Positions 29,352 through 54,947 of a DNA stretch of 64,000 nucleotides are shown here, piece after piece (position 1 is the stretch's first letter; each line of letters opens with the position of its first letter). The position numbers and the translations under genes were made by a program. Source of the stretch: Deltaproteobacteria bacterium. Lineage in GTDB: Bacteria; Myxococcota; Myxococcia; Myxococcales; 40CM-4-68-19. The notes beneath the pieces were generated by a model, which was not told the DNA's origin, did not search any database, and saw only the letters and a list, made by a program, of their open reading frames with translations. The DNA is taken from positions 1-64,000 of the forward strand of contig JANYKT010000106.1 in NCBI GenBank assembly GCA_025358085.1, read 5' to 3'.

Positions 29352-32300
29352 CTATTGAAGTCCAGCCCCTTCATGCTCGCAGTCGGGCTGGACACCCGGG
29401 GGAGGGAGCAGAATGTCGACGCGGCGGTTCAGCGCGCGACCCTCGTCTGTTTCATTCGAGGCTACCGGCGCCTTGCTGCCGCAGCCCTGCGACTTCACCT
29501 TCGCGCTGGGAACGCCGTGGGTCTCGAGCTCAACCTGGACCGCCCGGGCGCGCCGGGCGGTGAGCCGGTTGTTGTGGCTGTCGGTGCCGTGGTTGTCGCT
29601 GTGGCCGGCGATGAAGACCCGATAGGGACCGGTCTTGTTTCGCAGCACTTCGGCGAGCTCATTCAATTCGAGCTTTGATTGATCATCGAGAGTCGCGGAG
29701 TCGTGGCTGAAGCGCAGCGTGCGCTGGAGTTCGATCTTGCCGTCAATGATTTTCACATCGGGGTCAGCCGCGGCAAGAACCGGCGCAGGAGCAGGCGGTG
29801 GCGGCGCAACTGGAGCGGGGACGGGCACTGGCGGTGCAGGCTCGACAACCGCAAGCTGCACCGGCGCCGGTGCGGTCGCGACCAGCCGCTGGCCACGATC
29901 GTTCCGATTCCGCGAGTGCAGGAAGTCGAGCCCGGTGAAGGTCAGCTGCGCGACCACGCGAACAGGGGCCGCGCCCGGCGCGTGCTGGTTCAGGCGGCCA
30001 CCTGCACCCAGGCCGAAACTGAAGTCCCCGGTCTGGTAGCGCGCGCCGAGCAGCGCCTCGACAGAGGAGCGCGACGCATCGTCGAGCTGCACGCGGCTGA
30101 AGAGCTCAGGACCCACCTGCAGGTGGTCGTTGAGGAACATCCAGCCGCCGGCGAGGCCCAGCCGCACCGCCGAACCAACTCGGGTGAACGAGGCTTCGCT
30201 CGTCTTGCGCAGCTCGAGGCCGGCCTCGCTGGCGTACACCACCTGCCCCGAGCGGCCGCTCGCGAGCAGCTGGGGCAGCGCGCGGACGCTGCCGTCAGAG
30301 CCGTAGCCGCTCTGGCTGCCGAGGGGGAGAAAGACGCTCAGGCCCGCGGCCAGGGCGAGCCGGTCCCCGCGCAGCAGCGCCACTCGAGCGCCCAGGCGTG
30401 GGTCATGGAAGGCCGTGGCCGAGAGGCTCGCCGCTCCGTTGAACGGCGTCTGCCCTTGCTGGTACGCGCTCATCCCGATGTCCGCATCGAGCAGCACCCG
30501 ATTGAAGAGAGGGAGGGCGCCTCCGAGCCGGAGTCCGTACTGGTTCTGCACCAGCTTGCCTTGCTGCAGCGGAGAGCCGTTCGTGTAGAGCGTCAGCGGT
30601 TCGTGGGCCCAGCCGGCCTCGAGGCCGAAAGCGGGAGCAAGGTTGCCCTCGACGTCCGCATCGGGGACCTGGAAGAAGTGATCGCCGACCGGGGAAGGCT
30701 CGAAGGTATCGAGCGCAAAGCCGTCGCTGGCGCGGGCCTGCGCGGCACAGGTCAGCACCAGGAGCAGCGCCGCGTTGCGCAGCGCCGAACCGCTCTGCAT
30801 CGCGCTCACCGCCGTCCGCGACGGTGCCGGCAAAAGCGCGCGGCGTCGAAGGAGCAAAAATCCGGCGAGCAGCACCAGCGGCAAGAGCGCGGTGGACGGG
30901 CCGCTCGACGGCAGGCTGCTGCAGCCGCCCGAAGCGGCAGTCAGCGTCGCCGGGCCCACGCACAGATTGTTGGTGCAGAGGTCGCCGCCCCCGCAGTCGC
31001 TCTGCGCGCTGCAGACATCGATGTGCGTGACGGCGACGCTGGTGGTGAAGAGATTCCCCGACGACTGGCCATTGGAGACCGAATAAGTGAACGAGTCGGT
31101 GCCGAGGACGGATTGCGCCGGCAGGTAACCGATTTGATCGGCATTGATCGTCGCGGCGCCATGCGGCGCGGCCACGGTCATCGTGACGGTGATGGGCGCA
31201 CCGTCCGGATCGTAGCCCGCGGTGAAGGCGGCGAGCGGGCGCTCCTCGGGTGTGGTCCGGCTCTTCCAGGCCTCGGAGGCGACCCACGAAGGCGTGCCCT
31301 CGAGCGTGGCGACCGCGTGCTGCGAAGCGGCGTCGTACAGCGCATCGCCTGCGCCTTCGTCCATGCGCCAGAGGGCGAGGAGCGTGGCCGCGGCGGAAAT
31401 GACCGGACGCTTTTGATCGGCCTGCACGTCGGAGGCGGCGCGGGGCGCGGACCAGAAGCGGATCTCGTCGAGAGAGCCCGCGAAGCGATCGGTGCGGCCA
31501 ATCCCTGCCTTTGCCGCGGCGAAGACGATCGGCTGCGCCTTGGCTGTCCCGAACCCGCCGGGTAGCGAGGCGACTTGTGTTCCATCGACCAGGAGCAAGG
31601 TCGAGTCCCCCAAAGCGATGAGCGCCACCTGGTGCCAGCCGGTGCCGAGGTCGACGGGGATCTCACGAGCGTCGGCGCCGCGCCGCACCTGGATGCCGTC
31701 GCGACGGGCCGTGAGGCAGAGGCCGAATACGGTCGCATCGCCTTCGCCCTGTTGGATTAGACACGCCGCGGCGTGCGGGACGTCGCTCGCCGCTCGAATG
31801 AATTCCACCTCGACGGTTTGAACGCCGTCGAGCGCGCCATCGGCATTGGCGACCATGGCCGACTGCGTGGCTCCATCGAAAGCGACTGCGCTGCCGGAGC
31901 CCGCCACCGGCGCCGACTTCTGGATCACTTCGCCGCCCGGGAGGGTGCCTTGCGAGGCGAGATAATCAGCGGAGTCTGCGTAGCTGGCGGTGATGGGGTG
32001 GTTGCCGAGCGTCATCGAAGACACGGTCAGGCTCGCAGCGCCAAAGGCATCGAGCGAGACCGTGCCGAGCGAGCTGCCGGCGTCGGCGAACGACAAGCTG
32101 CCTTGCGGCGTGCCGGACCCCGGCGCCATCGAAGTGACACGAGCGGTGAAGGTGATGGGCCGGTTGACCAGCGTCTGGCTCGGCGAGGCCGCGACCGTGA
32201 CGGCGGTCGGGTCAGGCTTGACCAGATAGCTGGTTGCAAGTGAGGTGTTGCCCTGGAAGTTCGCGTCGCCGCCGTAGACCACGGTCAGCGGATGCGCTCC

Positions 32301-35300
32301 CGCGTGAGCGAACGATGAGCTGACCACTGCCGCTCCCGTGGTCAGCGTGCCGGTGCCGATGGGCGTGCCGGTCGTGGCGCCGTCATAGAGCGAGACCTGC
32401 CCGGTCGGCACGCCTCCGCTGGAGGTGACGCCGAGGCTGAAACCGATGGCCTGGCCGGTGACGCTGGTCGAAGGTGAGGGCGTGATAGCCGCGACCGTCG
32501 CGGCGCGGTTTACGACGAGGACGGTTCCGGCCACGGTGCTGCTGCCGTTGAAGTTGGCATCGCCGCCGAAGGTGGCAGTGATTGAATGCGAGCCGGCCAA
32601 AAGATTGCCGAGGCTGATGCTGGCGGCCCCTCCGCTGAGCGCGGCGGAGCCGATTGCGGTCGTACCGTCGCTGAAAGTCACGGTGCCGGTTGGCGAGCCT
32701 GCGCCCGGAGCGACCGCGGCGACCGTGGCCGTGAAGAGGACAGCAGCGCCGTAACTGGATGGATTGGGCGCGAGGGTCAGGACCGTGGTGGTCGCGGCCG
32801 GGCCGACCGTCTCGGCGACACTGCCGGACGAACCGCTGAAGTTGCTGTCGCCCGCATAGGTAGCCGTCACGGTGTGCGAGCCCGGCGGCAGAGAGGCGTC
32901 GGTGAAGACGACCACGCCGGTCGCGTCGAGATGGGCTGTCCCGAGCACGGTGTTGCCGGTCGCCGCGATGCCTTCAGTGAAAGTGACGCTGCCCGTCGCG
33001 ACGCCGGTGCCCGGCGAGGTGACCACGACGGTGGCGGTGTAGTGGACCGGTTGACCGAAGACCGGCGCGGCGGGATCGAAGGTCAGCGTGAGAGTGGTGC
33101 CGGCCTGGCCCACGATCTGGCTGTACACCGGGCTGGTCGAGCCGATGAAATTCGTGTCGCCCGCGTAGATGATGGTGAGTGGATGGGTTCCGACCGAAAA
33201 GGCTGTGGTGGAGAAAGTCGCGGTTCCGGCCGAGTCGAGTTGGGCAGTGCCGAGCGTATTGGTGCCGTCCTTGAAAGTGAGCGTGCCAGTTGCGATTCCG
33301 GCGCCGGGTGACACCGCGGTAACACCAGCCTGGACAGTGATCTTCTGGCCGGCGACCGAGGGGTTGATATCGACCACCAGCGCGGCCGAGCTTGCGGCCT
33401 GGGCAACGGTGAGCGGGACCGCGGCGGACGTGGCCGGGAGGAAGTTGGCATCGCCGCTGAAGCTGGCCGTCAGGCTGTGAGGGCCGACCGCGAGATTGGA
33501 AAGCTGCAGCGTCGCCACGCCGCTCGTGAGCGCGCCAGAGCCGATGTTCGTGGTGCCGTCAAGGAAGGTGACGCTGCCGGAAGGCGTGGCGCCCGGGCCG
33601 GCGACGGTCGCGGTCAAGGTGAGGCTCTGGCCGTAGACGGTGGCGGCAGGCGAGGCCGCGAGCGCAACCGAGCTCTGGGCCTGGTTGACGGTCTGGACAT
33701 TCGCCGGCGAAGTCGAGGTCAGGAAGCCGAAGTCGCCGCCGTAGCTGGCGGTCAAGCTGTGTGGGCCCACCGAGAGCGTAGAGAGCGAGAGCGTGGCGGT
33801 GCCGGCGCTGAGCGAGCCGGTGCCCAGGCTGATCGTGCCGTCGTAAAAGGTGACGGTGCCGCTCGGCACGCCCGCGCCCGGCGAAACCGGCGCGACCACC
33901 GCGGTCAGCGTGACCGCTCCGCCAAAGCTCGACGGCTGCGGTGAAGCGGTGAGCGTCGTCGCCGTCGAAGCCTGCTGGACGGTGACCGCGGTTGCGGAAG
34001 AGGTGGCTGGGACAAAGTTGCCATCGCCGCCGTAGTCAGCGGTGAGCGAGTGCGCGCCGGGGGCGAGCGAGGAGCTGGTGAAGCCCGCGACACCGTTCGC
34101 GAGGATGACCGTGCCGAGCACCGTGCTGCCATCCGAGAGCGTGACCGAACCCGAGGGCGTAGCGCCGGGGCCAGAGACGGTCGCAGTGAAGTTGATGGTC
34201 TGTCCGTAGACCGGCGAGGCGGGGCTGAAGGTGAGCAGGACCGCGGGGGTGGCCTTGTTCACGGTCTCGATGGTGGCGCCGGAGGTTGCAGAGATGAAGT
34301 CCGTGCTGCCTGCATAGGTCGCCGTCAGGCTGTGCGAGCCGACTGCGAGAGTTGTCACCACGATCGACCCGCTTCCCGAGGCGAGGGTGGCGGTGCCCAG
34401 GCTTGCGGTGCCGTCGAAGAAGGTGACCGTGCCGTCCGGTGTTCCGGCTCCGGGCGCGATGGCCGTCACACTCGCCTGCAGCGAAACATTGGCGCCGAAG
34501 GTGGACGGGATGGGCGCGACCGTGAGCGCGACGCTGGTCGAAGCCTGCTGCACGCTGAAGGTTGCGGCGGCAGAGGTCGCCATCGAAAAGTTGCCGTCGC
34601 CTCCGTAGCTGACCGTGATCGAGTGGTTGCCGACGGCCAGGGCCGAGGTCGGCAAGGTCACCGAACCGCTGGAGAGCGAAAAGGTGCCGAGGCTTACGGT
34701 GCCGTCGAGGAAGGTGACGCTGCCGGAAGGAGTGGCGCCCGGGCCGGTGACGGTCGCGGTCAATTGCACCTGCTGCCCGCGCACGGGCGAGGCGGGCGTG
34801 AAGCTCACCGTCGCCGACGCGCTGGCCTTGACGATGAGCTCGCCGGCCGAGTTTGTCGACGAGAGGAAGTCGTTGCTGCCGTTGTACGTCGCGACCAGGG
34901 TGTGCGAGCCGACCGAGAGCGAAGAGGTGACCAGCGACGCGGCGCCATTCGAGAGGGCCACCGTCCCCAGGCTCGCCGTGCCATCGAAGAAGGTCAGGTT
35001 GCCGTCTGGCGTACCGCTGCCCGGCGCCACGGCTGCGACGGTCGCGGCCAGGGTCACCGCGGCGCCGAAGGACTGGGTCGAAGGCGAGGCGGCGAACGCG
35101 GTCGTGGTCGAGGCCTGGCCCACGCTCACCGCGGTCGCCGCCGAGGTTTGAGGGCTGAAGTCAATATCGCCGGCGTATTGGACGGTGATTGAATGATTGC
35201 CGACGGAGAGCGAAGGCAGCGAGAGGGTGGCGGCCCCGGATGCGAGCGTGACGGTGCCGATATTAACGGCTGCGTCAAAGAAGCTCACGTCGCCAGACGG

Positions 35301-37826
35301 TGTCCCCCCCGGGCCGGTTACGTTTGCTGAGAGGTCCACGGGCTGCCCGGAAACCGGCGAGGGCGGAGCCACCGTCAGCGCCACCGCTGGCGTCGCCCGG
35401 ACAATGGTCTGGGTGAGAACGCCTGAAGTGGAAACGTTGAAGGTCGTATCTCCGTTGTACTGCGCGGTGATTGAATGATTGCCGACCGCGAGCGCGGAGG
35501 TGGTCAAGCTCGTGTTGCCGCCAGCGAGGGTGCCTGAGCCGATGCTCGTCCCCCCGTCGAGGAAGGTCACCGTGCCGGAGGGAGCGCCGCTGCCGGAGAC
35601 GGTCGCGGTGAAGGTCACGGCCGCTGCGAAGGTCTGCGTCGGCGCGGAGGAAGACAGCGAGACCGTGGTCGGGGCGAGGTAGACGAAGCTGCTCGCGAGG
35701 GTCGCGGACTTCGCGTCGGGATTGACCACCTTCACGTCATACGTGCCGGGCGAGAGAGTCGGCACGGTGAACGTGAGGGAGGTGGCTGTGGCCGCGGTCA
35801 CCGTCACTGCGGTGCCATTCAGAAACACGGTGGCACCGACCTGGAAGTTGCTGCCGGCAATGGTAACTACAGTGCCGGCCACGCCCTGGCCCGGGCTCAC
35901 CGAAGTGACCGTCGGCGGCGGCAAATCGAGGAAGCTGGCGGTGACGGTGACATTGGCAGCAAGCGTGATGGTGCAGGGGTTCGCGCTGCCGGAGCAGCCG
36001 CTCGTCCAGCCGGAAAACAATTGATTTGCGCCCGGGGTGGCGGTGAAGCTCACCTGGCTGCCGTCGAGGAATTTCGCGGAGGCCGAACCGCAGGCGCTGC
36101 CGCAATCGATCGCGGCCGGGCTGGAGACGACTCGCCCGGTTCCATTGCCGGATTTGGTCACGGTCACGATGTCGAGGGAGCCGATGCTGTCGGTGTCCGA
36201 GAAGCTGTTGTTCGCCGGAAAAGGGTCGCTGATGCCGCTCGGGGTCGCGATTGAGCCGGTCATGCGAAGGCTGCTGCTGCCGGAGCCGGCGATGATGTTG
36301 CCGGACAGGGTAAAGACTGCTTGTCCGCCGGAGGGCAGATCGACGGTGGTGCTGATGGCGCCGCTGCCGCTGGTCGCGGCGCAATTGCTGCCGGTCGCGG
36401 GGGCGCAGGTCCAGGAAGCGTTGGTGAATTGCGCGGGGATTGGAACCGAGACTGGCGCCCCGCTGACCGCGGTGGGGCCGTTGTTCTCAACGACGATGGT
36501 ATAAACGTCCGGGTCGCCAAAGAGGACCGCCGCCTTGCCGTCGGTGCCGGTGATGGCGAGGTCCGCGTAGACCACTCCGCTGGTGACAGTCGAATTCGTG
36601 ACCGGTCCGAGCAGCGGTGCAATGCCGTCCCCTTGCACTGCGTACGTGCCGTTGGCGATGGAGGTGTTGGCGGCGACGGTCGCAGGCACATTGAAGGTGA
36701 TGGTGAAGTTCTGGCTGGCGGAGGGACCGAGTGTGCCGAGGTTGCAACTGATGGTGCCGCTGGTCGCGCCAGGAGCAGGAGCCGTGCAGGTGGCGCCGGG
36801 GATGCCGCTGACGTCGGCGCTGGTGAAGGTCAAGTTCGCCGGGATGGGCTGGTTGACCGTGACGTTGGTGCCCGCAGCCGTGCCGCCATTGCCGACGGCG
36901 TAGGTGTAGACGAGGTTCGAGCCTGCGTTGACGGCATTCGGGGCGCGTGCCTGGACCGAGAGCCCCGGAATCCTGGAGCCGAAGGCGTCGAGATAGACCT
37001 CGCCCCAGTGACCTCCCCGGCCGCAGCCGGTCGCGACCACGGTGACTGTCACGCTGTCGCCAATGTCCAGTTGCGTAGACCCGGGCGAGATGTCGAAGGC
37101 CTGCCAGTCCGTGTAGAGGATGCCAGGCGCCCCCGGGTCGGTCTTCCAGGGAATTCCGGGTTCATTCGAATAGTGCAGCGTCGAAGCCAGCGTGAGCCCG
37201 CGGGTCTGGTTGACAACCTGCACGTAGTAGTAAGGCTGCTGGGCGAACGAGTGTCCGGGATTCTGCAGCACCGGCGCCACCGCGAAGCGTATGTGGATGT
37301 TGCCGTCGGTCGTGTCGACATCCGCCGAGCTCATGGTGGCGGTCTGGGTGAGGCTGTTCGAGTTGTAATTCGCGCCTTGCTGATTCACCACCGCCGAATA
37401 GGCGCCGAACTTGGGGATACGGAGCGTGGAGCTGCTGGTCAGGCCTGCCGGGAGGACCGTTTCGGTGGCACCGGTGACGGTGGCGCTGAGGTTGCTTCCT
37501 CCCGCAGTGAGGTGGAGGTCAGCGGTGCTCGCGGCCGGATAGGTGAAGCCGGAGCTGGGGTTCTTGCCGGTGGTCACGCTCCAGCCTCCCAGCGTGCCGT
37601 CTTCAAAGCCGCCATTGGTAAACACCGCGGGAGAGTTTCCGCCCAGCGGTTTGAGGTGATGCGAGAAGCCTGGCGGGTCAGCGGGCGGCGAGTTCTTGCA
37701 GGCGACGGCGGACACGCAGAGCGCGAGAAGGCCCAGGAGGCTTCGCGTTGTCCTCGCGGAGCATCTGAGTTGCGGACCGATCAAGGACGGAAAAGCGAAC
37801 CTGGGAATCTGCTGAGAAGCGCTCAT
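29352..37826 (-). CDS. Giant DUF11/Ig-repeat lipoprotein fused in frame to an OmpA-type outer membrane protein
   Basis: One uninterrupted frame of 2,824 codons. Order by residue: signal peptide with a possible lipobox (SAVAC, near 43); two DUF11-like domains (~290-385, ~425-530); a Cys-containing repeat (~550-630); an IPT/TIG domain (~632-712); thirteen bacterial Ig-like repeats (~720-1970), each with a Y-x-G-D-x-x-F motif; a LamG/concanavalin-like domain (~1975-2180); a cadherin-like segment (~2205-2260). A MYXO-CTERM-like tail follows: C2302, hydrophobic helix, R-R-R. Then a second signal peptide (from residue 2343, ATG at 30800), a beta-barrel-like domain and an OmpA C-terminal peptidoglycan-binding domain (~2690-2815, IAGHSDNHGTDSHNNRL). 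The first part looks like a surface adhesin and the second like an independent outer-membrane porin-type protein. Whether one or two polypeptides are made is not known. Confidence 0.8.
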   Translation of the reverse strand: MSASQQIPRFAFPSLIGPQLRCSARTTRSLLGLLALCVSAVACKNSPPADPPGFSHHLKPLGGNSPAVFTNGGFEDGTLGGWSVTTGKNPSSGFTYPAASTADLHLTAGGSNLSATVTGATETVLPAGLTSSSTLRIPKFGAYSAVVNQQGANYNSNSLTQTATMSSADVDTTDGNIHIRFAVAPVLQNPGHSFAQQPYYYVQVVNQTRGLTLASTLHYSNEPGIPWKTDPGAPGILYTDWQAFDISPGSTQLDIGDSVTVTVVATGCGRGGHWGEVYLDAFGSRIPGLSVQARAPNAVNAGSNLVYTYAVGNGGTAAGTNVTVNQPIPANLTFTSADVSGIPGATCTAPAPGATSGTISCNLGTLGPSASQNFTITFNVPATVAANTSIANGTYAVQGDGIAPLLGPVTNSTVTSGVVYADLAITGTDGKAAVLFGDPDVYTIVVENNGPTAVSGAPVSVPIPAQFTNASWTCAPATGSNCAATSGSGAISTTVDLPSGGQAVFTLSGNIIAGSGSSSLRMTGSIATPSGISDPFPANNSFSDTDSIGSLDIVTVTKSGNGTGRVVSSPAAIDCGSACGSASAKFLDGSQVSFTATPGANQLFSGWTSGCSGSANPCTITLAANVTVTASFLDLPPPTVTSVSPGQGVAGTVVTIAGSNFQVGATVFLNGTAVTVTAATATSLTFTVPTLSPGTYDVKVVNPDAKSATLASSFVYLAPTTVSLSSSAPTQTFAAAVTFTATVSGSGAPSGTVTFLDGGTSIGSGTLAGGNTSLTTSALAVGNHSITAQYNGDTTFNVSTSGVLTQTIVRATPAVALTVAPPSPVSGQPVDLSANVTGPGGTPSGDVSFFDAAVNIGTVTLASGAATLSLPSLSVGNHSITVQYAGDIDFSPQTSAATAVSVGQASTTTAFAASPSTQSFGAAVTLAATVAAVAPGSGTPDGNLTFFDGTASLGTVALSNGAASLVTSSLSVGSHTLVATYNGSNDFLSSTNSAGELIVKASASATVSFTPASPVRGQQVQLTATVTGPGATPSGSVTFLDGTVSLGTFSLSSGSVTLPTSALAVGNHSITVSYGGDGNFSMATSAAATFSVQQASTSVALTVAPIPSTFGANVSLQASVTAIAPGAGTPDGTVTFFDGTASLGTATLASGSGSIVVTTLAVGSHSLTATYAGSTDFISATSGATIETVNKATPAVLLTFSPASPVYGQTINFTATVSGPGATPSGSVTLSDGSTVLGTVILANGVAGFTSSSLAPGAHSLTADYGGDGNFVPATSSATAVTVQQASTATTLTASPQPSSFGGAVTLTAVVAPVSPGAGVPSGTVTFYDGTISLGTGSLSAGTATLSLSTLSVGPHSLTASYGGDFGFLTSTSPANVQTVNQAQSSVALAASPAATVYGQSLTLTATVAGPGATPSGSVTFLDGTTNIGSGALTSGVATLQLSNLAVGPHSLTASFSGDANFLPATSAAVPLTVAQAASSAALVVDINPSVAGQKITVQAGVTAVSPGAGIATGTLTFKDGTNTLGTAQLDSAGTATFSTTAFSVGTHPLTIIYAGDTNFIGSTSPVYSQIVGQAGTTLTLTFDPAAPVFGQPVHYTATVVVTSPGTGVATGSVTFTEGIAATGNTVLGTAHLDATGVVVFTDASLPPGSHTVTATYAGDSNFSGSSGSVAETVGPAATTTVLTLAPNPSSYGAAVLFTATVAAVAPGAGSPTGTVTFSDGTTAIGSAALSGGAASISLGNLLAGSHSITATFGGDANFNGSSTVAGTVLVVNRAATVAAITPSPSTSVTGQAIGFSLGVTSSGGVPTGQVSLYDGATTGTPIGTGTLTTGAAVVSSSFAHAGAHPLTVVYGGDANFQGNTSLATSYLVKPDPTAVTVAASPSQTLVNRPITFTARVTSMAPGSGTPQGSLSFADAGSSLGTVSLDAFGAASLTVSSMTLGNHPITASYADSADYLASQGTLPGGEVIQKSAPVAGSGSAVAFDGATQSAMVANADGALDGVQTVEVEFIRAASDVPHAAACLIQQGEGDATVFGLCLTARRDGIQVRRGADAREIPVDLGTGWHQVALIALGDSTLLLVDGTQVASLPGGFGTAKAQPIVFAAAKAGIGRTDRFAGSLDEIRFWSAPRAASDVQADQKRPVISAAATLLALWRMDEGAGDALYDAASQHAVATLEGTPSWVASEAWKSRTTPEERPLAAFTAGYDPDGAPITVTMTVAAPHGAATINADQIGYLPAQSVLGTDSFTYSVSNGQSSGNLFTTSVAVTHIDVCSAQSDCGGGDLCTNNLCVGPATLTAASGGCSSLPSSGPSTALLPLVLLAGFLLLRRRALLPAPSRTAVSAMQSGSALRNAALLLVLTCAAQARASDGFALDTFEPSPVGDHFFQVPDADVEGNLAPAFGLEAGWAHEPLTLYTNGSPLQQGKLVQNQYGLRLGGALPLFNRVLLDADIGMSAYQQGQTPFNGAASLSATAFHDPRLGARVALLRGDRLALAAGLSVFLPLGSQSGYGSDGSVRALPQLLASGRSGQVVYASEAGLELRKTSEASFTRVGSAVRLGLAGGWMFLNDHLQVGPELFSRVQLDDASRSSVEALLGARYQTGDFSFGLGAGGRLNQHAPGAAPVRVVAQLTFTGLDFLHSRNRNDRGQRLVATAPAPVQLAVVEPAPPVPVPAPVAPPPPAPAPVLAAADPDVKIIDGKIELQRTLRFSHDSATLDDQSKLELNELAEVLRNKTGPYRVFIAGHSDNHGTDSHNNRLTARRARAVQVELETHGVPSAKVKSQGCGSKAPVASNETDEGRALNRRVDILLPPPGVQPDCEHEGAGLQ
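30798..30929 (-). other. MYXO-CTERM-like signal and internal second start inside the giant frame
   Basis: On the minus strand, GGCSSLPSSG (Cys codon 30921-30923) is followed by the helix LLPLVLLAGFLLL and RRR (30840-30848), the layout of the MYXO-CTERM sorting signal, which normally ends a protein. Without a stop, the frame runs into V-S-A-M; the Met (ATG, 30800) opens a normal signal peptide (LRNAALLLVLTCAAQARA). GTG at 30809 is an alternative start. A weak GGTGAG lies upstream. This is where two separate genes would be divided if a stop codon were present. Confidence 0.75.
31920..35665 (-). repeat. Thirteen Ig-like repeats, alternating short and long
   Basis: Inside the giant gene, about 3.7 kb encodes thirteen Ig-like units. 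Each ends with LAVGNHSITAQYNGDTTF-type sequence. From the second unit, two kinds alternate for about four rounds: a shorter one with GPGATPSG and a longer one with APGAGTPDG. The alternation suggests growth by duplication of two-unit blocks. The last four units diverge. Long DNA repeats like these are prone to copy-number change and assembly error. Confidence 0.8.
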
Positions 37827-53790: not shown

Positions 53791-54947
53791 GAGCGCAAGG
53801 CTCCCCCTTGGCTGCATTGTTTCTCGCCGCGCTCTGCGGTTGCGTCACGGGCTCCGCACTGCGGGAGCGGTCGCACGCAGTCCAGGACGACATCAAGACC
53901 GCGCGCACTTCGGGTGCCGAGACCTGCGCTCCCCGCGAGCTCGCCATCGCCGAGGGCAACCTGCGCTTTGCCCAGCTAGAGCTCGACCACGGCGACAGTT
54001 TCCGCGCCGAGGACCACCTGAACCTCGCCGCGGGAAACGCCAGGACCGCGCTGTCCCAGTCGAAAGACTGCGGCAAGGTGACGGTGCTCATCCGCGAGAA
54101 GGACGTGGCGACGGTCCCGCGGGTCGCTCTCAAGGACACCGACGGCGACGGAGTCCCCGACATCGACGACCTCTGTCCCGAGGTGCCGGGTCCCGCGTCC
54201 AATCACGGCTGTCCGGTCATGACCGATCGCGATGCGGACGGCGTGCCGGACGACATCGACCGCTGCCCTGACGTGCCCGGCCCCAAGGAGAACTTCGGCT
54301 GCCCCTGGGCCGATCGGGACGGCGACGGTGTCCCTGACAAGGACGACAAGTGTCCCGATCTCGCCGGGCCCAAGGAGAACTTTGGCTGTCCGTACGGAGA
54401 CCGTGACGGCGACGGCGTGCCCGACGACAAGGATCTCTGCCCCGATGTCCCAGGGCCTGTCGAGAACGCGGGCTGCCCCTGGCCCGATCGCGACCACGAT
54501 GGAGTGCCCGACAAGGACGACAAGTGCCCCGACGAGCCCGGGCCGGCGGACAACCACGGCTGCCCGCGAAAGCAGACGCTCATCGTGGTCAAGAAGGACC
54601 GCATCGAGCTCAAGCAGCAGGTGCACTTCAAGCCGAACAGGAGCGTGATCCTGCCTGAGTCTCACGAGCTGCTGCGGCAGGTGGCGACCGCGCTGAAGGA
54701 CGCGCCGGCGGTGAACATCCGCATCGAGGGACACACCGACAACGTCGGCAAGCTGATGAAGAACATGAAGCTGTCGCAGGCACGAGCGGACGCGGTGCGC
54801 GACTTCCTGGTCAAGCAGGGCGTGGACGCGCGGCAGGTCGGCAGCGAAGGCTATGGACCCACCCGGCCCATCGCTTCCAACCTCACGCGCGCCGGCAAGG
54901 CGGCGAACCGGCGCGTCGAGTTCCGCATGGGCGACCGGCCCCGATGA
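53787..54947 (+). CDS. OmpA-family lipoprotein with thrombospondin type 3 repeats
   Basis: A 386-residue outer-membrane lipoprotein (LCGC, lipid Cys about residue 19). A DUF4398-like helical part (about 25-100) is followed by five Asp-rich calcium-binding repeats of the form D-x-D-x-D-G-V-P-D (about 117-265), then an OmpA C-terminal domain (about 280-385) with NIRIEGHTDNVG and NRRVEFRM that binds peptidoglycan. It should link the outer membrane to the cell wall. It overlaps its neighbours at both ends as ATGA. Confidence 0.92.
   Translation: MRAQGSPLAALFLAALCGCVTGSALRERSHAVQDDIKTARTSGAETCAPRELAIAEGNLRFAQLELDHGDSFRAEDHLNLAAGNARTALSQSKDCGKVTVLIREKDVATVPRVALKDTDGDGVPDIDDLCPEVPGPASNHGCPVMTDRDADGVPDDIDRCPDVPGPKENFGCPWADRDGDGVPDKDDKCPDLAGPKENFGCPYGDRDGDGVPDDKDLCPDVPGPVENAGCPWPDRDHDGVPDKDDKCPDEPGPADNHGCPRKQTLIVVKKDRIELKQQVHFKPNRSVILPESHELLRQVATALKDAPAVNIRIEGHTDNVGKLMKNMKLSQARADAVRDFLVKQGVDARQVGSEGYGPTRPIASNLTRAGKAANRRVEFRMGDRPR

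Follow-up and report, generated by a model that had tools for sequence, protein, structure and literature searches.

Does a single reading frame that holds two exported proteins encode a precursor to be cut at the membrane, or two proteins that are normally made apart? The question is raised by a minus-strand frame (37826..29352) in a 64,000-nucleotide stretch of DNA, hereafter the window, from a 5.4-Mb MAG (217 contigs, 98%-complete). The initial annotation had described one 2,824-codon frame with two exported-protein halves, and this description was confirmed. All 2,824 codons are open with no stop between head and tail, the coding-bias score is unbroken across the entire frame, and Pfam matches flank the junction in the same frame (13 Big_3_5, DUF11, TIG and Big_9 in the head; OmpA at aa 2706-2801). 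The features, from the whole frame and then in order of translation, are as follows.

29352..37826, minus strand: whole fused frame, 2,824 codons (open frame and coding bias)
37698..37700, minus strand: lipobox Cys aa 43 (SAVAC) of the head's N-terminal lipoprotein signal (sequence; similar in fused relatives with the same head domain)
36951..37625, minus strand: N-terminal head domain, beta-rich, with weak likeness to carbohydrate-binding modules (CBM27) (alignment, model, Foldseek)
36195..36938, minus strand: DUF11-type repeats (PF01345 / TIGR01451)
31857..35681, minus strand: stalk of about 13 bacterial Ig-like repeats (Big_3_5), limits approximate (PF16640, 13 stretches, E 1e-226)
31059..31262, minus strand: Big_9 domain directly before the tag, also in the split orthologues L029 and L034 (Pfam)
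30840..30932, minus strand: internal MYXO-CTERM tag, invariant Cys 2302 at 30921-30923 (TIGR03382, TIGR03901)
30834..30887, minus strand: first transmembrane helix, that of the tag (model helix 17-34)
30801..30833, minus strand: loop after the tag's RRR, containing a +1-frame GTGA with TGA at 30806-30808
30798..30800, minus strand: internal ATG (aa 2343), possible internal start, with SD-like GGCGGTGA upstream
30741..30800, minus strand: second signal sequence / second transmembrane helix (model helix 46-65)
30726..30743, minus strand: predicted signal-peptidase-I-type cleavage region, CAA|Q or ARA|S (-1 Ala invariant in 25 fused proteins)
29937..30632, minus strand: 12-strand outer-membrane barrel, TraB-like, with FapF-like fold (model, fold search, TraB profiles)
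29424..29711, minus strand: OmpA peptidoglycan-binding domain (PF00691, E 1.7e-17)

When the internal tag was scored against the sorting-tag models, it exceeded the curated cut-off of TIGR03382 (18.5 bits versus 15.85) and fell below that of TIGR03901 (17.2-17.4 bits versus 20). It has the Gly-Cys 2302, a hydrophobic helix and RRR, and the helix is present in the structural model, so the MYXO-CTERM-like tail that had been read inside the frame is upheld. C2302 (at 30923) and the internal ATG of aa 2343 (at 30800) also lie where they had been placed. As the frame continues for 522 codons past C2302, the tag is not at the C-terminus of the protein. Two candidate signal-peptidase sites were found at the second signal, CAA|Q (aa 2362/2363) and ARA|S (aa 2366/2367). 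The AlphaFold2 model, built with an alignment of 25 relatives, has helices at model residues 17-34 and 46-65 followed by the 12-strand barrel, with pLDDT of about 85-98 in most blocks of the barrel.

The head domain at 36951-37625 shares 44-54% identity with six fused relatives in the alignment; its model has a pLDDT of 69.5 and its best Foldseek match is 1pmh (E 5e-4, TM about 0.4). Pfam has no name for this domain, whose fused relatives sit in the other clade of barrels, and shuffling may have given heads different tails. The head has both an N-terminal lipobox (37698-37700) and the C-terminal tag Cys (30921-30923), as do the fused relatives with that head domain, and it might be lipidated at both ends. 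A further OmpA-domain protein is encoded at 54390-54929 on the plus strand (a 400-aa frame), where the TraB OmpA region is matched.

The implied uniqueness of this arrangement was not borne out, as the joined form is common in Myxococcales and the case of MXAN_5598 has been published (see below). When 60 relatives were searched, the joined frame was found in other genera of the same family and also in other families, one of them a fused relative on a single-contig genome of 4,350,553 bases. The relatives were inspected for the missing stop, and the stopless state is kept across genera, single-contig genomes included. A barrel profile searched over 145 genomes of the order matched in 136. By frame length, the 150 best barrel matches listed divide into 97 of 1,000 aa or more, 52 below 850 aa and one in between; length alone is no proof of fusion (L046, at 723 aa, is short yet fused). 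Every long frame that was fetched and placed on the tree has the tag and the second signal in frame, and the tag, an Arg-rich loop, a second hydrophobic helix and an AxA signal-peptidase site are present in 39/39 fused junctions examined. A joined architecture in so many genomes is far beyond chance. L046 (G012:C8) is a miniature fusion of 723 aa, in which a lipoprotein-like signal is separated from the internal tag by only about 100 head residues.

An unrooted tree of 58 barrels was built with IQ-TREE (38 loci fused, 20 not). The fused or split label changes at least nine times on it, six of these changes being forced by well-supported branches; because the root is not fixed, the number is a count of changes in which fusion and fission are not separated. 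The window gene falls in a supported clade of five, two fused and three split. Thus, the arrangement is common and has been gained or lost repeatedly. Two candidates were rejected during this survey: the paralogue L048 (C64, same genome) as a split form, since it has a barrel but lacks OmpA and lies behind a porin-like gene, and a C134 open frame of 2,049 aa as a family member, since it encodes an unrelated large outer-membrane protein.

The halves were also sought as separate genes, and ordinary overlapping pairs were found, the nearest being L029 and L034. In the split relatives L029, L030 and L034, the head gene ends in a MYXO-CTERM tag and shares four bases with the tail gene. Split relatives are organised as TraA/TraB-style pairs of genes, and an overlap of this size is frequent among them. 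The traA and traB genes themselves overlap by four bases (PMC3325183), and the same was seen here in TraB loci. The TraB model NF033763 hits fused relatives in both the barrel and the OmpA portion of the tail, and true TraB proteins match the family barrel profile, in which the window gene is included, at E about 1e-44. Because the tail is homologous and the overlapping split pairs L029 and L034 share the domain before the tag, we consider the window gene to be the fused form of a TraA/TraB-style pair. It is not TraAB itself, as its tail reaches 102 bits against a TraB equivalog cut-off of 700 and no PA14 was found in the Pfam scan of its head, on which TIGR04201 scored 9.9 bits (cut-off 25).

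We propose that the frame encodes a TraA/TraB-like pair as one precursor, composed of a surface adhesin head and an outer-membrane barrel with an OmpA wall anchor, with a presumed role in adhesion or contact. The N-terminal signal would export the head, the MYXO-CTERM helix would halt transfer and leave the Arg-rich loop in the cytoplasm, and the second hydrophobic segment would act as an internal signal sequence that enters the membrane again. Two cuts would follow. Cleavage by a myxosortase-type protease immediately behind Cys 2302, which is presumably lipidated, would release the head to the cell surface; cleavage by signal peptidase I behind the AxA-type site would release the half with barrel and OmpA, which would then insert into the outer membrane. 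One translation event would supply both partners in equal amount. We regard this two-cut polyprotein as the best-supported mechanism for the family and as reasonably probable on the motifs in the junctions; we know of no experiment on the second cut. We also lean, by a little, toward a wider view in which myxobacteria have a large class of two-cut membrane polyproteins, where a hairpin of tag and internal signal peptide, cleaved at its two sides by myxosortase and signal peptidase I respectively, yields receptors and barrel partners 1:1, and which has repeatedly switched with four-base-overlapping pairs doing the same by coupled translation.

The junctions themselves carry most of this argument. 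Across an alignment of 25 fused junctions, two elements are invariant (25/25 each), the tag's Gly-Cys and the -1 Ala, and +1 Gln and -3 Ala are present in 23/25 and 21/25, respectively, while the junction-plus-barrel regions of these proteins are only 22-33% identical to that of the window. These counts were taken from a MAFFT alignment, as the automatic hairpin parser misplaced helices or the Cys in L031, L044 and L069. The net charge of the loop is +3 to +6 in all automatically parsed junctions but one, which matches the requirement for a cytoplasmic loop. In 23 close orthologues (the ftsZ-linked set and its kin), A-x-A|Q is kept at all three positions in 23/23, and the loop evolves fast, with indels in frame and no conserved start codon. 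An invariant AxA next to a fast-evolving loop of this kind fits a fused precursor as the functional product and the second helix as a cut signal. The polyprotein and hairpin reading of the initial annotation is therefore well supported at the family level by the tag Cys, the -1 Ala and the stopless state across genera, and less firmly so for this gene.

The same junctions bear on internal or coupled initiation at ATG 30800 (or GTG 30809), by which most of the second half would be produced as a separate protein, the joined product being incidental. In the family the evidence is against it, as no start codon in the loop is conserved. The loop ATG is absent in 21/23 close orthologues, most loop GTGs in these orthologues lie after the Arg cluster and would yield signal peptides poor in basic residues, and six fused junctions have no ATG, GTG or TTG at usable distance. 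SD strength at loop starts across the family is not clearly over background and decides neither way.

In the window gene itself the case for such a start is better. ATG 30800 is preceded by the SD-like GGCGGTGA (duplex energy -6.3, which about 9% of random internal starts attain), which is no worse than the sequences of L029/L034 and resembles the starts of several split relatives (-5.8 to -9.5), and a product begun there would open with a normal signal peptide. The four-base overlap in the split orthologues means that their translation is probably coupled. The window loop, which retains the start codon, is the longest measured (25 versus 12), and its Cys-to-Ala distance of 61 is the longest of the 25 (median 50). 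At 30806-30809 a GTGA is found in which a +1-frame TGA overlaps an in-frame GTG, in the geometry of the TraA/TraB-like four-base overlaps. From this long loop, the intact start with its ribosome-site-like sequence and the GTGA shared with the nearest split orthologues, the fusion in this gene looks recent. The nearest orthologous pairs, L029 and L034, are ordinary overlapping separate genes, and the possibility that relatives are split and only this assembly is fused agrees with these pairs but not with the family, where the fused state is common. We judge internal initiation to be an unlikely account of the locus, less probable than the two-cut precursor.

One observation counts against the two cuts. 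No match to MrtX (NF040593) was found in this 98%-complete MAG, and 7/12 genomes of the window's family have one. Several proteins encoded in the window genome end in MYXO-CTERM tags that pass the cut-off, and the genome also has two generic CPBP proteases (contigs C55 and C102) that match the myxosortase core weakly. Either MrtX lies in an assembly gap or another protease serves. Cleavage of MYXO-CTERM by MrtX has been shown by experiment in M. xanthus and E. coli (PMC11980579), and the authors of that study point out that C-terminal sorting tags also function in mid-protein.

It is also conceivable that the fusion stays whole as a single protein spanning the envelope, with the hairpin left in the membrane. 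The conserved absence of a stop would agree with this, and the cleavage sites are themselves predicted from sequence motifs. Such a protein would leave the invariance of AxA and the tag Cys without a reason, its head and tail are separate proteins in relatives, and a helical hairpin is ill-suited to the outer membrane, where barrel and OmpA belong; we consider it quite improbable.

In the case of a one-base local difference or an assembly error, the true locus would be an overlapping pair like L029/L034. The GTGA is as in L029, L030, L034 and true TraA/TraB, codon likelihoods in the linker do not discriminate between the frames (-38.0 versus -39.1), and the locus is known from a single MAG, a single-protein GTDB scan for a second assembly having returned only two distant stand-alone barrel genes with no tag upstream. 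This reading is very improbable, and less likely than internal initiation for this gene, because an NTGA overlap within 12 codons occurs 12% of the time by chance, a rough audit of the window found no obvious broken genes or frame breaks, and the fused state is common, four further genomes of the same taxonomic family included, which gives a high prior for a real fusion.

An arrangement noted once in the literature as atypical is thus widespread, repeatedly gained or lost, and conserved in its cleavage motifs. It offers a natural substrate on which the action of an internal sorting tag can be tested. It also ties TraA/TraB-like contact systems to a large set of fused relatives, one that probably extends to lineages reported without traAB. 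To our knowledge, it is rare for a bacterial polyprotein to be cleaved at the membrane so that two surface proteins result, each sorted separately. One known membrane polyprotein is the cytochrome b/c1 precursor (fbcH) of Bradyrhizobium, which signal peptidase cleaves at a signal sequence inside the precursor; its proteins are unrelated to those of the window, and it has only one of the two cuts proposed here.

The nearest solved folds to the window barrel are the FapF and COG4313 channels (PDB 5o65-5o68, 4rl8), which are 11-14% identical to it and lack OmpA and tag, a likeness of fold that does not imply one of function. With the myxosortase (MrtX)/MYXO-CTERM sorting system, the window frame shares the Gly-Cys, the helix and the Arg cluster, but the usual tag is terminal, whereas that of the window is internal and followed by a second signal sequence. 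In TraA/TraB (PMC3325183, PMC6372800), as in the window, a MYXO-CTERM head is immediately followed by a barrel-OmpA partner; TraA and TraB are encoded by two genes rather than one frame, and the TraA head has a PA14 variable domain and Cys-rich repeats, in contrast to the window head with no PA14 match.

The closest parallel is MXAN_5598 of Myxococcus xanthus. In PMC11980579 (Guo, Haft and Wall 2025) this protein, which has a barrel and OmpA, is presented as an atypical case whose MYXO-CTERM is internal; a gene fusion was suggested there, N-terminal processing was proposed and a likeness to TraA plus TraB was drawn. The protein has been detected in outer-membrane vesicles (PMC4158809). The passage on MXAN_5598 in PMC11980579 is silent on a second signal peptide, a signal peptidase cut and the spread of the fusion. 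Added here to the published account are that spread, the repeated switching with overlapping pairs, the conserved second signal with its signal-peptidase site, and the finding that no internal start is conserved. By that description, MXAN_5598 joins a large adhesin region, an internal MYXO-CTERM, an outer-membrane barrel and OmpA in one frame, like the window gene. MXAN_5598 adjoins ftsA/ftsZ, and fused genes lie directly beside ftsZ in several Myxococcaceae genera (L055, L057, L062, L064 and L067), an apparent link to cell division. The window gene does not adjoin ftsZ (ftsZ is on contig C105, the window on C137), and the ftsZ-adjacent fused genes fall in another barrel clade. The window gene is a new, non-orthologous member of the MXAN_5598-type internal-tag fusions.
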